Shown here: positions 11,570-19,725 of the stretch, piece by piece
Position numbering within the stretch: position 1 is the stretch's first letter
Layout of the letters: each line of letters begins with the position of its first letter
DNA from: Myxococcales bacterium
GTDB taxonomy: Bacteria > Myxococcota_A > UBA9160 > SZUA-336
DNA length: 64,000 nucleotides
Reading direction: 5' to 3'
Assembly: GCA_013215565.1 (NCBI GenBank)
Contig: JABSQV010000004.1
Span: forward strand, 204,917-268,916
Made by a program: the position numbers and the translations under genes
The notes under the pieces: model-generated
What the model saw: the letters and a program-made list of their open reading frames with translations, nothing else
What the model was told of the DNA's origin: nothing
Database searches by the model: none

Positions 11570-13252
11570 TCACGATTCTGAACTTGTTTGACGCCCCTGC
11601 AGGGCCGAAGCCCGGATATAGCGAGACGAGATTGGAGACAGATCGTCCGGATCGACAATCGCCTCGATGAGCGCGAAGCGCGGCTCCCGGTGTGCGCGCT
11701 CCAGTGCGTCGCGGAGTTCGCGACGATTTCTGACGCGAATCCCGAGGCCACCCCAGCCCTCGGCCATCTCTGCGTAGGGCCAGTTGGGCAGCTCGAGCAG
11801 GTCGGCGCGTGGCGAAACCGGCCGAAAGATTCCCCAGCCTCCGTTGTTGACCACGATGATGATCGGGTTGCAGCCGTGGCGCGAGGCGTGTGAGAGTTCG
11901 GCGCCCGTCATCTGGAAAGCCCCGTCTCCGCACAGGACCAGCGGGCGCTTTCCACTCCCGATCTGGATGCCGAGTGCCGCCGGAACGCCGTAACCCATCG
12001 AGGCATAGAAGCCCTGGGCAAAGTAGAGCCCGCCGGGCGGGACCCGGACCTCGAGTCCACCGAAGAGCATGTCGCCCGACTCCGCAACTACATGGTAGCC
12101 ACGCCGAACCCGCAGAAAATCGTTGACCGTGAGCAGCAGATCGTTGACTGCGATGGGCGTACGCGCCTCGGCCCGGGGGCGCTTTAGGTTGTCCGCGTAC
12201 TCGACCTGCTCCCGGTGTCTGCGAAGTCCAGGGATCCGGCGGATCGCGCGCACGAAGGGCCGGAGACGTACATCCGTGTAGGTGTGTCGACTGATGTGCA
12301 CCTGTCCGCCCATCGCCTGAACCATCCGCTCCGGCGCAACCCCGCGCGAGGACGCCCCCAGGTTGATGTCGCTCCGAAGCGCCCCGAGCGCCAGGACCAG
12401 ATCGGCGTCTGCAACGCGCCGCCGAATCGGGGCCGGCCCCAGATTCCCCATGTACAGGCCGAGATACAGGGGGTGGTACATCGGAAAGGCGCCACGCGAG
12501 AGCACCGTCGTTGCGACCGGAGCGCCGAGCCGGTCGGCGAGCGCGACCAGGTCGCGCGTCGCGCCTTCGCGGTGCACCTCGATCCCGACGATCACGACCG
12601 GGCGTCGCGCGGAGTTGATCCGATCGGCGGTCTCGCGCGCCGCCTCGGCCCCTTTCGCGCTGTCGGAGGTCGGCTCCGCAATCGAACCGTCCCAACGTAC
12701 CAGCTCCGCCGGGACCCCGATCCGGGTCTCGACCAGGTCCCGGTGGATCTCGAGGTAGCCGGGCCGCCTGCGGGAGCGGATCGTCGAGACCAGTTCGTGG
12801 ATCTGCTCCGCTGCACCCGAAGCGCTCCGGATCACGCAGGATGCACAGCTCACCTCCTGGAAAATCCGGTGCTGACTCTCGATTTCCTTCGCCTGGTGGT
12901 GAATCAGCGTCCCGAGCCTGGTCTCCTGCTCGCCCGGGCCGCCGCTGATCACCAGCAGCGGAACTTCCTCGGCGAACGAGCCCGCAACCGCGTTCACGAC
13001 GTTGTGCCCGCCGGCCCCGTAGGTCACGACGACCACGCCCATCCGCCCGGTCGCACGCGCGTAACCGTCCGCCGCGAAGCCGACCCCGGGCTCGTGCGAG
13101 AACGTCATGATGCGAAGGCCCCGTTGGGCCGCAAAGCGGTGGAACAGGTTCAGGACCAGGTCGCCCGGCAGCCCGAACAGATGCTCGACGCCGGCCCGCC
13201 TGAGGTAGGCCACCAGGAAATCGCCGAGGGGCATCCTGGAGCGCATGTCCAC
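11570..13252 (-). CDS. TPP-dependent decarboxylase, indolepyruvate/pyruvate decarboxylase type
   Basis: 560 residues from a GTG, with ATGs at codons 3 and 7 as alternatives. It has three-domain TPP-enzyme architecture. The N-terminal PYR domain has G-L-P-G-D-L-V and the catalytic Glu in S-H-E-P-G-V-G-F-A-A-D-G-Y-A-R. The C-terminal PP domain has G-D-G-A-F-Q-M-T ending in V-V-N-N, the Mg-TPP motif. The pattern fits non-oxidative 2-oxoacid decarboxylases more than acetolactate synthase, but the substrate is not certain. It is divergent from the acyltransferase gene at 13293, 40 bp away. Confidence 0.8.
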   Translation of the reverse strand: MDMRSRMPLGDFLVAYLRRAGVEHLFGLPGDLVLNLFHRFAAQRGLRIMTFSHEPGVGFAADGYARATGRMGVVVVTYGAGGHNVVNAVAGSFAEEVPLLVISGGPGEQETRLGTLIHHQAKEIESQHRIFQEVSCASCVIRSASGAAEQIHELVSTIRSRRRPGYLEIHRDLVETRIGVPAELVRWDGSIAEPTSDSAKGAEAARETADRINSARRPVVIVGIEVHREGATRDLVALADRLGAPVATTVLSRGAFPMYHPLYLGLYMGNLGPAPIRRRVADADLVLALGALRSDINLGASSRGVAPERMVQAMGGQVHISRHTYTDVRLRPFVRAIRRIPGLRRHREQVEYADNLKRPRAEARTPIAVNDLLLTVNDFLRVRRGYHVVAESGDMLFGGLEVRVPPGGLYFAQGFYASMGYGVPAALGIQIGSGKRPLVLCGDGAFQMTGAELSHASRHGCNPIIIVVNNGGWGIFRPVSPRADLLELPNWPYAEMAEGWGGLGIRVRNRRELRDALERAHREPRFALIEAIVDPDDLSPISSRYIRASALQGRQTSSES

Positions 13253-13292
13253 GCGAAGATACCCACAAATGCCCTATTCTCCGAGGGACGGG

Positions 13293-14252
13293 ATGACAGA
13301 CTTCGCGCTCCCTCCTGAACGCACCAAGCTCGCGGAGCAGGTCCTCGCGATGCTCGGGGACCGAAGCGTCGCAAAACGTGCCGATCTGAGCGGGGCCGTG
13401 GCCCGAACCCTGGTCGAGGCTCGCGACGAGGAGATCCACGGTTTCCTCGAGCAGATCGGGTCGACCGGAGGGGACTGGGGCTACCACCCGGCCAACGCGC
13501 TTGCGCGGCGGGTCATGGGTGCCGTGCAGCAGGTGCTGCTGCTTCCGGGCTCCGGGCTCGCCGGCACGGAGAGCCTCGAGGTCGCCCGCGAACGGCCGAC
13601 GCTCTTCTTCGGAAATCACGTCTCCTTCAGCGATGCGAACGTGCTGGAGCATCTCGTGACCCGCGCCGGCTACGACGACGTCGCGCAGCGGATGGTGGCT
13701 GCAGTCGGTCCAAAGGTGTACACCTCGGTCCCGCGCCGGATTGCGAGCCTCGCGTTCGGGACCATCAAGCTGCCGCAGAGCGCCAGCCGCGCGACGGCCG
13801 AAGTCCGACTGAGGGCACGCGAGGTCGCGCGTCTCTCCCACCAGGCGCTCGCGGTCGCGCGCGAACGGCTCGCGGCCCGCGAGCACCTGATCGTGTTCGT
13901 CGAAGGTTCGCGCAGCCACGACCAGGGCATGAAGACCGCGCTCCCGGCCGTCGCCCGCTATCTCTCCTTCCCGGATCTGGCCATGATTCCGTTCGGCCTC
14001 TGGGGAAGCGAACGCCTGTCTCCGCCGGATGACCGGGGGCTCGCACCGGCCCGGGTCGAGGGGCGCCTCGGACCCGCGCTCGACGCAGCGCGGATTCTGG
14101 ACGCCTGCGGGCAGAACCGGGTGCTCTGCATGCAGGTCGTCGGGGTCCTGATCGCGCGCCTGCTTCCGCCCGCGTACCGGGGTGCCTACGCGAAAGACGC
14201 GCCGAAGCTCGAGCGAGCACGCGAACTCGCCCGGGAGTTGTCGGAGGCTTGA
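13293..14252 (+). CDS. PlsC-like acyltransferase
   Basis: 319 residues, from the ATG with GAGGGACGG upstream. N-H-V-S-F-S-D (the H-x4-D catalytic motif of glycerolipid acyltransferases) is near residue 110. A later F-V-E-G-S-R-S-H matches the E-G-x-R-S substrate-binding block, and M-I-P-F-G-L-W-G the final block. No clear membrane anchor is seen. It probably acylates a lysophospholipid or related alcohol. Its stop overlaps the next gene's TTG start by 4 nt. Confidence 0.8.
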   Translation: MTDFALPPERTKLAEQVLAMLGDRSVAKRADLSGAVARTLVEARDEEIHGFLEQIGSTGGDWGYHPANALARRVMGAVQQVLLLPGSGLAGTESLEVARERPTLFFGNHVSFSDANVLEHLVTRAGYDDVAQRMVAAVGPKVYTSVPRRIASLAFGTIKLPQSASRATAEVRLRAREVARLSHQALAVARERLAAREHLIVFVEGSRSHDQGMKTALPAVARYLSFPDLAMIPFGLWGSERLSPPDDRGLAPARVEGRLGPALDAARILDACGQNRVLCMQVVGVLIARLLPPAYRGAYAKDAPKLERARELARELSEA

Positions 14253-15571
14253 AGCCCAGCAACCGCGTTCGAGCCTGTGGCCCGCTCCGGGCCCTCTGGA
14301 GCGCGCTGGCGCTGCTCGCGGCTCCGGCGCTGGCCGACGTCGACCCGCTCGCTGAGAAGGCCGAGCAGTTTCGCAGCGCGCTCGTAGAGCGGCATCTCTC
14401 GCCCGAGGGCCTGGTCCTCTACAGGATCGACCTGGACCGCCTGCCTCAGATGCTCGAGACCGGCCGCTACCCGCGCCAGGCCGACACCCCGATGTTCACC
14501 GGCATCTGGGCCGCGACCAGCTGCCTGCGGGCACGCCTGGTCCGAGGTCCGGAACGCGAGGAAGCCCTTCACGACGCAGGCCGCGCACTCGCGGGGCTCG
14601 AGCTGTTGATGGGCGTGACCGGACACCGCGGCCTGCTCGCCCGCCTGGTCCGGCGCGCATACGCGCCCCAGGGGGCGGAGGAAGCCCGCCAGAAATGGTA
14701 TCCGGGCGGCCCAGGCTATGAAGACTACCGCTGGCGCGGCGAGGTTTCGGTCGACCAGTACGCGAGCGGACTGCTCCCGGCCGTCTGGGAGTGCCGCGAG
14801 CTGTTCCCGGAACGGAGCCGGGAACTCGTCACGGGATTCGCGGATCATCTGCTCGAGCACGATCTCGAAATTACGGACGCCGACGGAGCGCGCACCCGCT
14901 TCGGAGACCTGTCGCCGCGCGCCGGCTACGGCTGGAACTCGATCGCGCAGCTCACCGCCTACGCCACCTTCGCGCTCGCGGCGAAACTCGGGACGAACCC
15001 CGCCTACGCCCGCGAGCGCGACCGACTGCGCGACGAACGACGGGTGGTAGCGCGGTCGCGGACCACCAACCTCCGCATCGGCGCGACCACGAACCCCTCG
15101 AACGACCTGATGGCCTGGAGCCTGTTCCGGGTGCTGGTCCCGCTCACGCGCGAGACGCGCGATCCGGCGCTGGCGGACCTGCGTCACGCCACACACGTCG
15201 CCTGGTTCCGGGTGCGAAACGACGGCAACCCGCTCTTCGCCGGACTGTTCTGCCAGCTCGAGCCGGGAGCGTGCGACCGCGCCGCGCTCGATCAGGCCCG
15301 GGAACTGCTCGCGCGCTTTCCGCTCGACAAACGGGGGCGGGGCCCCGACCCCGCAGTGGCCAGGCTGCCCCGGAGGCTGCTCCCGGGACGCAAGTGGCGC
15401 CCGCTCGCGCGAGATCCCGTCCCGATCGAACTCCGCGCCACCGACTCCTACGAGTGGAAGGCGAGCCCCTACCGCGTGGACGGGACGGGCGCTCCGAGCA
15501 CCCAGTACACGGGCCTCGACTACCTATCTGCCTACTGGGTCCTGCGCGCCGCGGACTCGGCCGCCCGGTAA
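14249..15571 (+). CDS. exported protein of unknown function, probable alpha/alpha-barrel
   Basis: 440 residues from a TTG overlapping the acyltransferase stop; no other start lies before the signal peptide. The signal peptide has a hydrophobic core L-W-S-A-L-A-L-L-A-A-P-A-L-A, with cleavage expected near residue 29. The mature part is helical and rich in W, Y and R, with repeated blocks (D-T-P-M-F-T-G-I-W-A-A-T, D-Q-Y-A-S-G-L-L-P-A-V-W, Y-G-W-N-S-I-A-Q-L). Such regularity suggests an alpha/alpha toroid as in glycan-processing enzymes, but no catalytic signature is certain. Coupling to the acyltransferase hints at an envelope role. Confidence 0.55.
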   Translation: MKPSNRVRACGPLRALWSALALLAAPALADVDPLAEKAEQFRSALVERHLSPEGLVLYRIDLDRLPQMLETGRYPRQADTPMFTGIWAATSCLRARLVRGPEREEALHDAGRALAGLELLMGVTGHRGLLARLVRRAYAPQGAEEARQKWYPGGPGYEDYRWRGEVSVDQYASGLLPAVWECRELFPERSRELVTGFADHLLEHDLEITDADGARTRFGDLSPRAGYGWNSIAQLTAYATFALAAKLGTNPAYARERDRLRDERRVVARSRTTNLRIGATTNPSNDLMAWSLFRVLVPLTRETRDPALADLRHATHVAWFRVRNDGNPLFAGLFCQLEPGACDRAALDQARELLARFPLDKRGRGPDPAVARLPRRLLPGRKWRPLARDPVPIELRATDSYEWKASPYRVDGTGAPSTQYTGLDYLSAYWVLRAADSAAR

Positions 15572-15646
15572 AGCCCCCCGCTGCCGGCGCCGATGTACCT
15601 CATAGCCCCTGGACGGCTCAAATCTCCGCCCCCCTGCGGGAGCCCC

Positions 15647-16057
15647 ATGCTTCGCAGCGCATCTCCTGGAACCGCCCGCGTGCCCCGGCGACCCCGCGTC
15701 AATTCGGAGTCAGCATCGCTCGACATCTTCCTTGCGAACTCCCAGGCTGCCATCATGGTGGTCGCGGGAGGGCACGAGGGCGTGGAGTTCGTACTCGATC
15801 AGCAGCGCGTGCTGATCGGACGGGGACCGGGCATGGACCTGACGATCGACGACTCGAGCCTCCGCACACTGGAGGCCGCGCTCGAATTTCGCCAGGGTGC
15901 GTACCACCTTCGGCGCTTCGACCTCGAGGCAAACCCGGGGTCGGATGGCGCGCCAGCGCGCGCGCAGAGGCTGAAATCCCTCGACCAGTTCCGGCTCGGA
16001 GACCTTCGCTTCGAGTACACGATCTCGCCAGATGACGTCGGCGGCCCGACGGGATGA
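15647..16057 (+). CDS. FHA-domain protein
   Basis: 136 residues from the ATG at 15647, behind GGGAG; the ATG at 15593 is also open. After a basic stretch comes an FHA-like beta sandwich: F-V-L-D-Q-Q-R-V-L-I-G-R-G-P (the G-R pair opening FHA domains), D-L-T-I-D-D-S-S-L-R, and a final L-R-F-E-Y strand. FHA domains bind phosphothreonine. The canonical S-x-x-H is reduced to S-S-L-R-T, so phosphopeptide binding may be altered. It overlaps the pseudokinase gene by 26 nt, implying a joint function. Confidence 0.6.
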   Translation: MLRSASPGTARVPRRPRVNSESASLDIFLANSQAAIMVVAGGHEGVEFVLDQQRVLIGRGPGMDLTIDDSSLRTLEAALEFRQGAYHLRRFDLEANPGSDGAPARAQRLKSLDQFRLGDLRFEYTISPDDVGGPTG

Positions 16058-17321
16058 TCTGGCGTCCCCCCCGGCCGCCTCGCGGCCGACCGTAGCAATG
16101 GAACTCCTGAGCGGAACGGCGATCGGCAGCTTCGTGATCGACGTGCGGCTCGCGAGCGAGGGGACCTCCGAGATCTACCGCGCGCACCAACCGGCGCTCG
16201 GCCGATCGGTGCGGATCGTGCGGCTTCCGGACCCGCCGGATGCGGCGAGCAACCCGCTCCCCGGCCTGGATCGCGAACTCCGGCTGCGTGCCCGGCTGCT
16301 GCACCCCAACGTCGCGCAGCTGTTCGACTGCTTCACGCAGCACGGCGCGATCTATCTGGCGAGCGAAGACGTGGACGGCCCGAGCCTGGCCGAGCTTCTC
16401 CAGGCCGCGGTCCCGATTCCGGCCGCGGTCGCGCTCCAGATTGCGCTCGAACTCTCGCGCGGCCTCGCCGAGATCCACGAACGCGGCATCGTCCACGGCG
16501 ATCTGCAGCCCCGGAACCTGCTCGTGAGCCGCGCGGGCGAAGTCAAAATCACCGGCTTCGAGCACGCCCGAGAGGCCGGAAGCATCGACCCGGCCGAACC
16601 CGCGGGGTCCGCACACACCCGGCCGCCCGAGCAACGGGCTGGATCCCGGAGGTTGCCGGCCTCCGACGTTTTTGCTTTCGCGCGAACGCTGCAGCAACTG
16701 CTGGCCGGACGGACCGAGCCCGCGGGCTCGACCCGCTTCCCGGGCACCAGTCGCCGGCTCGAGCGGTCGCTTCGCGCCTCGCTCCTCGAGGATCCCGCAC
16801 TCAGGCCACGGGCCCGGGACCTGCGGGACGCATTGGCGCAGGAACTCGGCGAACCGGGCCCGCTGGATTGCCGCGTCACCATCGCCGCCTGGCTCTGGGA
16901 GGCACAGTCCGGGACGGCCGGCGGCTCCGGGAACTCTGCGACCGCTGAGGCAGGCCGTGGGCGTACGGCCGCTGCCCGGCGGCGCGCGCTCTCTCTGGTC
17001 GGAGCCGCCGCAGCCATTCTGCTGGCCGGAATTCTCTGGGTCGGATACGAGCGAAACACCGCACCGCGCGACGTCGCAGCGCAGATGCTGACGCCCGCAG
17101 ACGCGCCCGGCCTGGTTTCGTTCGTGGCGCATCCATGGGCCGAGATTCAGGTCGACGACCTGCCCCCATTCGTCACGCCGCAGGCGGCGCCACTCGAACT
17201 CGCGCCGGGCGAGCACCGCGTTGTGTTCCGGCACCCCACACTGGGCTCGCGCGAGCGGACCCTGCGGGTGGTTCCCGGGGAACGCAGGCGCGTGATCGAA
17301 ATCCTCGAGCCCGCGTCGTGA
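16032..17321 (+). CDS. membrane pseudokinase with periplasmic PEGA domain
   Basis: 429 residues if the ATG at 16032 is used; Met23 at 16098 is an alternative. Residues 30-270 align by eye to Hanks-type Ser/Thr kinases: a loose Gly loop (L-A-S-E-G-T-S-E-I-Y-R), a helix-C Glu (E82), catalytic loop H-G-D-L-Q-P-R-N (155-162), and V-K-I-T-G-F-E-H-A-R where V-K-I-T-D-F-G-x-A-R is expected. The metal-binding DFG Asp is therefore Gly175, and no Lys occupies the VAIK position (S-V-R-I-V-R-L). It is probably a pseudokinase. A transmembrane helix spans about 319-339, and a PEGA-like beta domain (361-425) follows on the other side. It lies between FHA and LysM genes with overlaps on both sides. Confidence 0.75.
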   Translation: MTSAARRDDLASPPAASRPTVAMELLSGTAIGSFVIDVRLASEGTSEIYRAHQPALGRSVRIVRLPDPPDAASNPLPGLDRELRLRARLLHPNVAQLFDCFTQHGAIYLASEDVDGPSLAELLQAAVPIPAAVALQIALELSRGLAEIHERGIVHGDLQPRNLLVSRAGEVKITGFEHAREAGSIDPAEPAGSAHTRPPEQRAGSRRLPASDVFAFARTLQQLLAGRTEPAGSTRFPGTSRRLERSLRASLLEDPALRPRARDLRDALAQELGEPGPLDCRVTIAAWLWEAQSGTAGGSGNSATAEAGRGRTAAARRRALSLVGAAAAILLAGILWVGYERNTAPRDVAAQMLTPADAPGLVSFVAHPWAEIQVDDLPPFVTPQAAPLELAPGEHRVVFRHPTLGSRERTLRVVPGERRRVIEILEPAS

Positions 17322-18271
17322 GGACAAGGCTGGATCGGCGCCTGCTCGCAGCCGCCCTCGCACTGGTCGCGGGCAACTCGTTCGCGGCCGCCGGGCCGGA
17401 TCCGGAAGCCCCCCTGGAGCAGACCCACGTACTGGGCCCCGGTCAGAACCTGGCCTGGGTCTCGGAACGGTACTACGGAACCGCCCGCTGGGACTCCGTC
17501 CTCAGGCGCTACAACGGACTCCCGTCCACCGCACCTCCGCCCGCAACGCGGGTTCGGATCCCGCGCTCGAAGACCCAGACCGCCGTGCCCGGAGACACCT
17601 GGTCCGCGCTGGCGGAGCGTCACTGGAAGCGTCCGTTCGCGGCCGACGCGTTCGCTCGCATGAACCAGCGCTCGCTTCGGGAGCCGCTGCAGGTCGGGGA
17701 ACGCGTCGCGGTGCCGATCCTGGTGCCAGTCGAACTCTCGCGAGGACAGACGCTGGCCTCGGTCGCGCGCGAACTCTACCGGGATCCGGAGTTCTGGCCA
17801 CTGCTCCAGTCCGTGAACCGGATCGAACAACCGCACAAGCTGCGGCCCGGGACCCGGATCCTGGCGCCCGTCGTCCTCGAAGCGCGCGCGCTTCCGGAAT
17901 CCGAAGAGTCCGCGGCTGACCCGCAGGGCCGCGACACGGATCCGGGGCGCTCGCTCGACGCCGCCACGGGACCGGACCCGGAACGCACACGCGAACTGGA
18001 AGCCGGAATCCGCGCCTACCGGCAAGGGCAATACGCACAGGCACTGGAGTCGCTGGAGTCCGCGCGTGCCGAGATCATGACCCGGGGCTCGATCGCGCAG
18101 CAGCGGAGCCTGCTGCGCCACCTCGGATTCAGCTACGTGGCCTACGATCTCGGCAACCCCGCCTGCGCCGCGTTCCGTGACTTCGAGCGGGTCTCGCCCG
18201 GCATCGAGTGGGATCCGAAACTCGTGTCACCCAAGATCCTGACGGTGCTTCGCGGCTGCCAGGGCCTCTAG
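17318..18271 (+). CDS. exported LysM-repeat protein with TPR-like C-terminus
   Basis: 317 residues from a GTG that overlaps the pseudokinase stop (GTGA). The signal peptide is about residues 1-25. Three LysM-like units lie at roughly 36-82, 88-134 and 138-186, each with the G-Q/D-T/N-L/W start and a final R-I-P / V-P-I / I-L-A-P strand. They probably bind peptidoglycan. A linker and a helical TPR-like region (Y-R-Q-G-Q-Y-A-Q-A-L-E-S-L-E near 230) end the protein. With the PEGA protein it could link wall state to the cytoplasmic FHA partner; this is inference. Its 3' end overlaps the convergent dehydrogenase gene by 45 bp. Confidence 0.75.
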   Translation: MRTRLDRRLLAAALALVAGNSFAAAGPDPEAPLEQTHVLGPGQNLAWVSERYYGTARWDSVLRRYNGLPSTAPPPATRVRIPRSKTQTAVPGDTWSALAERHWKRPFAADAFARMNQRSLREPLQVGERVAVPILVPVELSRGQTLASVARELYRDPEFWPLLQSVNRIEQPHKLRPGTRILAPVVLEARALPESEESAADPQGRDTDPGRSLDAATGPDPERTRELEAGIRAYRQGQYAQALESLESARAEIMTRGSIAQQRSLLRHLGFSYVAYDLGNPACAAFRDFERVSPGIEWDPKLVSPKILTVLRGCQGL

Positions 18272-19318
18272 CGCACTTCGTTCCGCGGCCTCGAGCGGGC
18301 TGATGGCCTCCGCGGCCGCGCGTTCCAGGACCGCCAGCAGATTTCGTGGGATCGCCTGAAGTCGCTCGCGAGACGGCCCGTCGGGATCCGGCATCGGCCG
18401 TTCCCCGGCGGCCGCCGCGTGGGCGGCCGCGAGGTAGATGAGACCCCCCGCGTTCGCAACGAAATCGGGGACGCAGAGGATCCCGCGCGCCTGGAGTGCC
18501 GACGCCAGCGAGCGGTCTGCGAGCGGATTGTTGGCGGCGCCGCAAACCACGCGGCAGGCCAGCTCCGCAGACTGAATCGCGGCCGGGGGACCGCACGGAG
18601 CCAGCACGTCACACGGAGTCTCGAGCAGGCGGCCCGGCTCCACGACCCGGGTCTCGGGAACCCGCTCCCTCAGCTGTGACAGCGCCAGCGCGTCGGTCTC
18701 CGCAACCGAAACCTCCGCTCCCGCCCCAATCAGCAGTTCGGCCAGCCGCAATCCGACCTGGCCCGCGCCCTGGATCAGGACCGACGCGCCCTCCAGGCTC
18801 CGCCCCAGGTGCGCCAACGCCGTCTCGGTCGCCAGGCAGACCCCCAGCGCGGTGTGGGGGGCGGGTTCCCCGCACCCGCCGAGCTCCCGCGGGTAACCGA
18901 CGACGTGGGACGTCGTCTCGCGGATCACGGCCATCTCGCGTTCGCTCGTCCCCATGTCCGCGGCCGTCACGTACTCGCCGCCGAGTCCCTCCACGAAGCG
19001 ACCCAGGGCCAGCAATTGCTCGCGCGTGCGCGCTCTGGGATCGCCGATCACGACGGCCTTGCCGCCGCCGAGTGGAAGACCCGCGAGCGCGGCCTTGAGC
19101 GTCATCGCGCGCGCCAGTGCGCGGGCGTCCGCACGCGCCGAGGCCACATTCGGATACGGCTTCCAGCGGCAGCCCCCGAGCGCGGGGCCGCGTGCGGTCG
19201 AGTCGATCGCGATGACCATTTCCACTCCGGCCACGCGCTCGAGGTGCAGCGACTCGAGTCCCCCAAAGCCCCGCTCGGGCGGATCGGTTGCGGTGCTGTC
19301 GCTTGACCCGCTCTGCAT
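18227..19318 (-). CDS. Glu/Leu/Phe/Val dehydrogenase, leucine-dehydrogenase type
   Basis: 363 residues from the ATG at 19318, the usual length of leucine dehydrogenase. Substrate-domain features are G-P-A-L-G-G-C-R-W and L-P-L-G-G-G-K-A-V-V (catalytic Lys), and D-M-G-T-S. The NAD domain has Q-G-A-G-Q-V-G-L and later C-G-A-A-N-N-P-L. It reversibly deaminates branched-chain or related amino acids to 2-oxo acids. The last 45 bp lie inside the LysM gene on the other strand. Only 20 bp separates its start from the divergent small gene, so promoters must overlap coding DNA. Confidence 0.88.
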   Translation of the reverse strand: MQSGSSDSTATDPPERGFGGLESLHLERVAGVEMVIAIDSTARGPALGGCRWKPYPNVASARADARALARAMTLKAALAGLPLGGGKAVVIGDPRARTREQLLALGRFVEGLGGEYVTAADMGTSEREMAVIRETTSHVVGYPRELGGCGEPAPHTALGVCLATETALAHLGRSLEGASVLIQGAGQVGLRLAELLIGAGAEVSVAETDALALSQLRERVPETRVVEPGRLLETPCDVLAPCGPPAAIQSAELACRVVCGAANNPLADRSLASALQARGILCVPDFVANAGGLIYLAAAHAAAAGERPMPDPDGPSRERLQAIPRNLLAVLERAAAEAISPLEAAERSALEALAAAKHRQDLG

Positions 19319-19338
19319 ACCGGGGATTATGAAGGGGC

Positions 19339-19725
19339 ATGAGTACCCCCGCCCCCCCCGAGGAACCGCGCGCTGCCCGAGCGCGCGGCGTGATGATCGC
19401 CCGGGGAGGCGGCGGCGACGATCTGCGCGCGCTCGCCGAACTCCTGGATAGCGCCGGGATTGACTACGGGATCGAAGACCGGTTGGAGCCGGACGGAAGC
19501 GGCCGGGCGTGGCAGATCTTTGTGAGCCCGCGCGACGTCCTGCGCGCGCGCAGGACCCTGCAACAGCTCGTCGCAAAGGGATCGACAGACACTCGGGCGG
19601 GCGCGAACACCCCGCCGACGGGCCCGCTGTTCGAGGGCGGCGGGCGCGGGCTCACGCAAAGCTTCCTGGTCCTGGCATGCTTCGGTCTCGGCTTCCTCCT
19701 CCTGTTGCGCGGCTGCATGGGATAG
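19339..19725 (+). CDS. DUF2007-like protein with C-terminal membrane anchor
   Basis: 128 residues. The N-terminal domain (A-R-G-G-G-G-D-D-L-R-A-L-A-E-L-L-D-S-A-G-I) continues into I-F-V-S-P-R-D-V-L-R-A-R-R-T-L. This resembles the DUF2007/GlnB-like signal-transducer fold. A Gly/Pro linker leads to a C-terminal hydrophobic helix F-L-V-L-A-C-F-G-L-G-F-L-L-L-L-R. The ATG is only one base behind AAGGGG, so Met19 may be the true start. Function unknown. Confidence 0.55.
   Translation: MSTPAPPEEPRAARARGVMIARGGGGDDLRALAELLDSAGIDYGIEDRLEPDGSGRAWQIFVSPRDVLRARRTLQQLVAKGSTDTRAGANTPPTGPLFEGGGRGLTQSFLVLACFGLGFLLLLRGCMG

Follow-up and report, generated by a model that had tools for sequence, protein, structure and literature searches.

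The window analysed here, a stretch of 64,000 nucleotides from a Myxococcales bacterium (GCA_013215565.1, contig JABSQV010000004.1), holds three consecutive genes on one strand (+) at 15647-18271. The first (15647..16057; start ATG 15647, with a possible upstream ATG at 15593) encodes an FHA-fold protein with a degenerate phosphothreonine pocket. The second (16098..17321, in a reading frame open from 16032) encodes a membrane pseudokinase with a C-terminal PEGA-type domain and the third (17318..18271, GTG start) an exported protein with a signal peptide, three LysM modules and a TPR-like helical C-terminal domain. The kinase and LysM genes share 4 bp (GTGA, 17318-17321) and this overlap is kept in the relatives. 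Relatives begin their kinase at the equivalent of ATG 16098. With this start, 40 bp separate the FHA stop codon from the kinase gene, and a 26-bp overlap of these two genes arises only with the alternative kinase start ATG 16032. Thus, of the three overlapping genes described in an earlier note on this DNA, the consecutive arrangement and the kinase/LysM overlap stand but the FHA/kinase overlap does not. As the genes were found intact in six other genomes of the window's family at 28-40% identity, their coding is real.

The six relatives carrying the locus each belong to another genus than the window's, and contig ends remove part of the locus in three of them, the compared genomes being mostly in many contigs. 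The order in these relatives is acyltransferase, secreted protein, FHA (where present), kinase, LysM and a convergent dehydrogenase. In the window the two conserved upstream genes, encoding an acyltransferase-like protein (13245-14252) and a secreted protein (14249-15571), span 13245..15571 (+), and the Glu/Leu/Phe/Val-dehydrogenase family gene (18227..19576, -) is the one that bounds the locus downstream in relatives. The upstream genes are context and lie outside the module, because they are kept in relatives without it; the secreted protein was rejected as a module member, as it remains in G003, G006 and G009 without adjoining kinase and LysM genes. In these three genomes the upstream genes are followed by neither kinase nor LysM, so that both are gained or lost jointly. 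The secreted protein (~440 aa) carries many invariant residues and occurs in 10/11 family genomes, with two copies in G003; searches with Pfam, NCBIfam and PDB profiles gave zero matches to it. A thiamine-diphosphate-enzyme-like ORF (11570-13252, -) separates methyltransferase-like and acyltransferase-like genes in the window alone; L026, L027 and L029, which are syntenic with it, have none at that place.

The pseudokinase comprises a cytoplasmic kinase-fold domain (16098..16922, +), one predicted transmembrane helix (16965..17051, +; model residues 290-318), in agreement with the membrane helix proposed before, and an extracytoplasmic PEGA-type beta domain (17109..17303, +; model residues 338-402). 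The kinase domain matched Pfam Pkinase at 81.9 bits, covering model positions 45-195 of 263 only. The earlier reading of its active site was accurate, with the VAIK Lys replaced by Val and DFG by GFE, and the losses go further: the Gly loop, HRD Arg and Lys and most of the activation segment are also gone. The alpha-C Glu, HRD His and Asp and alpha-F Asp are kept. The window protein therefore does not show the set of Gly loop, VAIK Lys, HRD and DFG that marks an active Hanks-type Ser/Thr kinase. Structure prediction, a check suggested along with the original proposal, gave an AF2 (AlphaFold) model with a mean pLDDT of 88 that consists of a kinase fold, one long helix and a beta domain, and Foldseek placed PknB among its best matches (TM-score 0.77 by target length).

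The same losses run through the family. VAIK Lys, HRD Arg and HRD Lys are lost and the Gly loop is broken in all seven family pseudokinases, which come from seven genera, and the DFG Asp is lost in six, L051 retaining it; the catalytic residues are intact in 37/37 class kinases of the same alignment. None of the seven deviates at the alpha-C Glu, HRD His or alpha-F Asp. Catalytic columns were kept in 33/91 cells versus 285/462 for other conserved columns (p=9e-6, a descriptive value as the seven form one clade and are non-independent), which points to a fold that is retained while the active site goes. A juxtamembrane column holds Thr in 35/37 active kinases versus 1/7 pseudokinases. No truncated form was seen among the seven genera. 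Judged from these alignments, the pseudokinase is a genuine and fixed trait of the window family, and we infer from the residues lost that its members are without catalysis. A catalytically unconventional rather than dead kinase, which binds nucleotide in some other way, e.g. through Lys/Arg flanking the missing VAIK Lys, to transfer phosphate or a different group, would account for the HRD Asp kept in 6/7, the alpha-C Glu kept in 7/7, the R-K pair found at the VAIK Lys and next residue in 5/7 and the DFG Asp of L051. We hold it to be quite improbable, for the Gly loop, VAIK Lys, HRD Arg/Lys and metal-binding DFG Asp (6/7) were lost jointly, the activation segment is shortened and the neighbouring FHA protein has no phosphate pocket.

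Conservation is distributed differently in the pseudokinases and their active relatives. Kinase domain identity was 43% among pseudokinases versus 58% among active relatives, and in the four genomes in which an active FHA-kinase pair and a pseudokinase coexist (G004, G005, G008 and G010) the active kinase domains were 59-64% identical and the pseudokinase domains 39-46%. For PEGA the order was reversed, with 50% identity over all pairs among pseudokinases versus 27% among active relatives having PEGA, and within the family no other domain of the pseudokinase protein is conserved as well as PEGA. Constraint has thus moved to the part outside the membrane. Although the Pfam PEGA model gave zero match on the window protein itself, the corresponding region of its homologue L102 matches PF08308 at 1.6e-8 and profile-profile comparison of the PEGA regions of the family and phylum sets gave 99.7% probability, so that the outer PEGA domain named earlier is, by homology, a PEGA-type beta domain.

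These figures also bear on relaxed decay, in which the operon is kept for the LysM protein and a PEGA-transmembrane anchor while the kinase domain and FHA drift to loss with no signalling at all. The long pseudokinase branches (0.4-1.9 versus a median near 0.25-0.3), the 39-46% identity of their kinase domains, the better conservation of PEGA and the FHA gene missing beside four pseudokinases would fit such drift. However, seven genera retain an uninterrupted reading frame and the complete kinase fold, with none truncated, and structural residues, among them HRD His, alpha-C Glu and alpha-F Asp, do not vary; we therefore regard decay as unlikely, and retention of the fold as a structural core remains the preferred reading.

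On the far side of the membrane, the LysM protein matched PF01476 with one module (24.1 bits), and its profile matches PDB LysM proteins. Its model (pLDDT 87) has a signal-peptide-like N-terminal hydrophobic helix, three LysM units and a TPR-like bundle. The window protein thus has both LysM modules and a signal peptide, and the exported three-LysM/TPR protein of the earlier description was recovered in full. A LysM orthologue is present in exactly 7/7 pseudokinase genomes and at comparable score in 0/84 other class genomes. The core module is therefore the pseudokinase-PEGA protein plus the LysM protein, with FHA optional. The LysM protein would be expected from its family to bind peptidoglycan, and the overlap and joint occurrence of the two genes suggest that it meets the PEGA protein in the periplasm.

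The FHA protein showed a similar loss of its working residues. It matched Pfam Yop-YscD_cpl above cut-off (E=1.6e-8, 35.1 bits) and PF00498 FHA below cut-off (only 12.4 bits), its best PDB matches were OdhI and GarA, and by profile it is an FHA beta-sandwich. Of the residues that contact phosphothreonine (GR..S..H..STNG) it keeps the GR Arg; Ser is replaced by Arg and His by Glu, and STNG is lost. In the class, FHA genes adjoin active kinases at 37 loci, and the Arg, Ser, His and Asn are kept in 37/37. Of the FHAs beside pseudokinases (window, G001 and G004), 3/3 are without pocket Ser and Asn, versus 0/37 beside intact kinases (Fisher p=1e-4, overstated by kinship), and both residues are missing from 7/7 FHAs of the window family lineage. 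Most FHAs beside active kinases carry an N-terminal M-x-D-G-x-T-R motif (34 fit a loose pattern), and this DGxTR tail motif was not seen in the three beside pseudokinases. The window FHA is thus unlikely, on these residues, to read phosphothreonine, and its designation as a phosphothreonine-reader has to be given up. That another cellular kinase phosphorylates a threonine of the pseudokinase or of its partner and the FHA reads this mark, as FhaA does with MviN (PMC11898655), draws on that precedent, on the kept FHA fold and GR Arg, and on the three further kinases encoded in the window genome. With the Ser, His and STNG Asn replaced in the window, Ser and Asn gone from every family FHA and the juxtamembrane Thr lost, we consider this highly improbable. 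By sequence comparison, decay in one lineage has reached writer and reader as well as the threonines that were likely acceptors.

The FHA gene is also the loosest member of the locus. It adjoins the pseudokinase at 3/7 loci, no FHA gene lying between upstream gene and pseudokinase in G008, G002, G005 and G010, and was for this reason rejected as an obligatory partner. Four more degenerate family FHAs (G006, G008, G009 and G010) lie elsewhere on contigs with the pseudokinase locus or its empty equivalent, two of these genomes having no pseudokinase. The stand-alone degenerate FHA genes are located at L046:7146-7505, L047:6044-6367, L049:7135-7989 and L051:1014-1361, roughly 5-24 kb from the pseudokinase locus or its empty equivalent. 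Among the seven degenerate FHAs, 5/7 cluster (94/85) and a single clade of all is compatible with the data (p=0.27). A fixed three-gene system, as first envisaged, was consequently not found; linkage holds for the kinase and LysM genes, which co-occur in 7/7 genomes, but not for FHA, which occurs independently. The 37 two-gene units of FHA and active kinase (L030-L085), with DGxTR in the FHA and an ETVV-like juxtamembrane motif in the kinase, look from their motifs like an OdhI/GarA-type switch outside Actinobacteria.

A search with the pseudokinase profile recovered full-length kinase-TM-PEGA proteins in other classes of the phylum. A homologous LysM gene, which aligns end to end, follows kinase-PEGA at 13/16 of the first loci examined, with the same four-base overlap at 12/13 such loci, and LysM orthologues were present in 86/379 phylum genomes. 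The window pair has this composition, a kinase-TM-PEGA gene followed by a 4-bp-overlapping 3xLysM/TPR gene. The phylum kinases adjoining LysM look intact apart from isolated changes, for example a weakened Gly loop or HAD in place of HRD (L137 and L138), and no FHA gene was detected beside the phylum pair. The gene order, taken at first as undescribed, is therefore not unique: a LysM gene after kinase-PEGA is common across the phylum. The full order with FHA was seen in three genomes of three genera only. Similarly, relatives with an active kinase in place, on whose absence the original idea depended, do exist at phylum level, but no active version of the locus was found within the window family. 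In the literature searched, no published description of a kinase-PEGA plus LysM module was found. In some genomes of other families the kinase-PEGA-LysM pair has an extra kinase ORF next to or immediately after it (L134, L136, L138 and L144).

Catalytic residues have also been lost in a second set of kinase-PEGA proteins. Members of family f17 that are not beside LysM (L110, L112, L113, L126-L133 and L142) have lost the Gly loop and most of them DFG (NFS, NFA, GFS, EFA), and three retain DFG yet carry altered VAIK and HRD surroundings; the f17 kinases that adjoin LysM look intact. In the kinase tree the seven family pseudokinases form a single clade (support 100/99) that groups with class FHA-kinases (100/92) and not with the phylum kinase-LysM set, although one clade uniting the family pseudokinases with that set is compatible with the kinase data (AU p=0.14). 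A single origin of the window-family and f17 pseudokinases was rejected (AU p=0.0002), therefore the catalytic motifs were lost at least twice. A tentative extension is that the wall-linked receptor kinase module exchanged phosphorylation for signalling by contact more than once, with the f17 lineage losing catalysis independently; we put this forward as possible and with less confidence than the account of the window locus that follows.

Taken together, the locus probably encodes a peptidoglycan-linked receptor-kinase module that has lost its signalling chemistry and become a phosphorylation-independent scaffold. The exported LysM/TPR protein would be attached to cell-wall glycan in the periplasm and be coupled there to the single-pass membrane protein of the overlapping upstream gene, through the PEGA ectodomain of the latter. 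In most of the phylum this membrane protein has a cytoplasmic part that resembles an active Ser/Thr kinase; in the window family this part is a pseudokinase, whose retained structural kinase core may offer a docking surface for proteins. Where an FHA-fold protein is adjacent, it may dock without phosphate, as do the FHA domains of EssC/YukB on EssB/YukC. Because the catalytic and phosphate-reading parts are lost and the link to the LysM partner is kept, the phosphorylation signal is suggested to have been replaced by direct protein contact. The putative contact between FHA and pseudokinase is the weakest step of this scheme, because FHA is absent beside 4/7 pseudokinases and degenerate FHAs occur in two genomes without a pseudokinase. 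The phosphorylation-independent path from peptidoglycan to cytoplasm that the earlier note suggested thus appears to be the best reading of a locus from which catalytic residues, pocket and likely acceptor threonines are gone.

The phylum is rich in Ser/Thr kinases. To our knowledge, few bacterial pseudokinases have been described, mostly as single examples. In the present phylum one receptor exists in both active and dead versions, with FHA changing in step, so that signalling without catalysis and the order in which features were lost can be tested. The results also point to a wall-facing kinase module made of kinase-PEGA and LysM proteins. If our reading is true, the periplasmic half gained constraint in the window family while writer, reader and likely acceptor threonines were lost, and the repeated switch would offer a set of natural cases in which the change of a kinase cascade into a scaffold can be studied.

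Several systems resemble the module in part. The phylum pair of kinase-TM-PEGA and 3xLysM/TPR proteins has the same domains, order and 4-bp overlap and a partner homologous end to end, but its kinase is mostly intact, no FHA was detected and the kinase tree does not unite the two sets. The PASTA-type kinases PknB, StkP and PrkC share the PknB-like kinase fold, one transmembrane helix and a wall-facing ectodomain; the window protein differs in having PEGA and not PASTA, in the probable assignment of wall binding to a separate, co-translated LysM protein and in the apparent loss of catalysis. In OdhI, GarA and DgcB (Bdellovibrio), tail threonines are bound by the protein's own FHA domain (PMC6733907). 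The class FHAs beside active kinases resemble these, with an intact pocket and a conserved N-terminal Thr, whereas the window FHA has neither pocket nor tail motif. A pseudokinase and an FHA protein also meet in a cell-wall setting in MviN (MurJ) and FhaA of mycobacterial wall synthesis, where FHA reads a phosphothreonine made by PknB (PMC11898655); in contrast, the window FHA is without the pocket residues and the window system has no flippase. In type VIIb secretion, the membrane pseudokinase EssB/YukC binds EssC/YukB FHA domains that lack the phosphopeptide residues, apparently independently of phosphorylation when studied in E. coli (PMC9600267). The likeness extends to a single-pass membrane pseudokinase with an extracytoplasmic domain and an FHA partner without phosphopeptide residues. 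The window system differs in its PEGA-type ectodomain and LysM partner and in its FHA being a small separate protein rather than part of an ATPase, and both sequence and Foldseek put its kinase with PknB. Homology of the window pseudokinase to EssB was rejected, as the YukC family PF10140 is absent from the window genome while the same search was positive in the B. subtilis control. EssB/EssC may nevertheless be taken as the closest mechanistic precedent, the similarity being one of working and not of membership.
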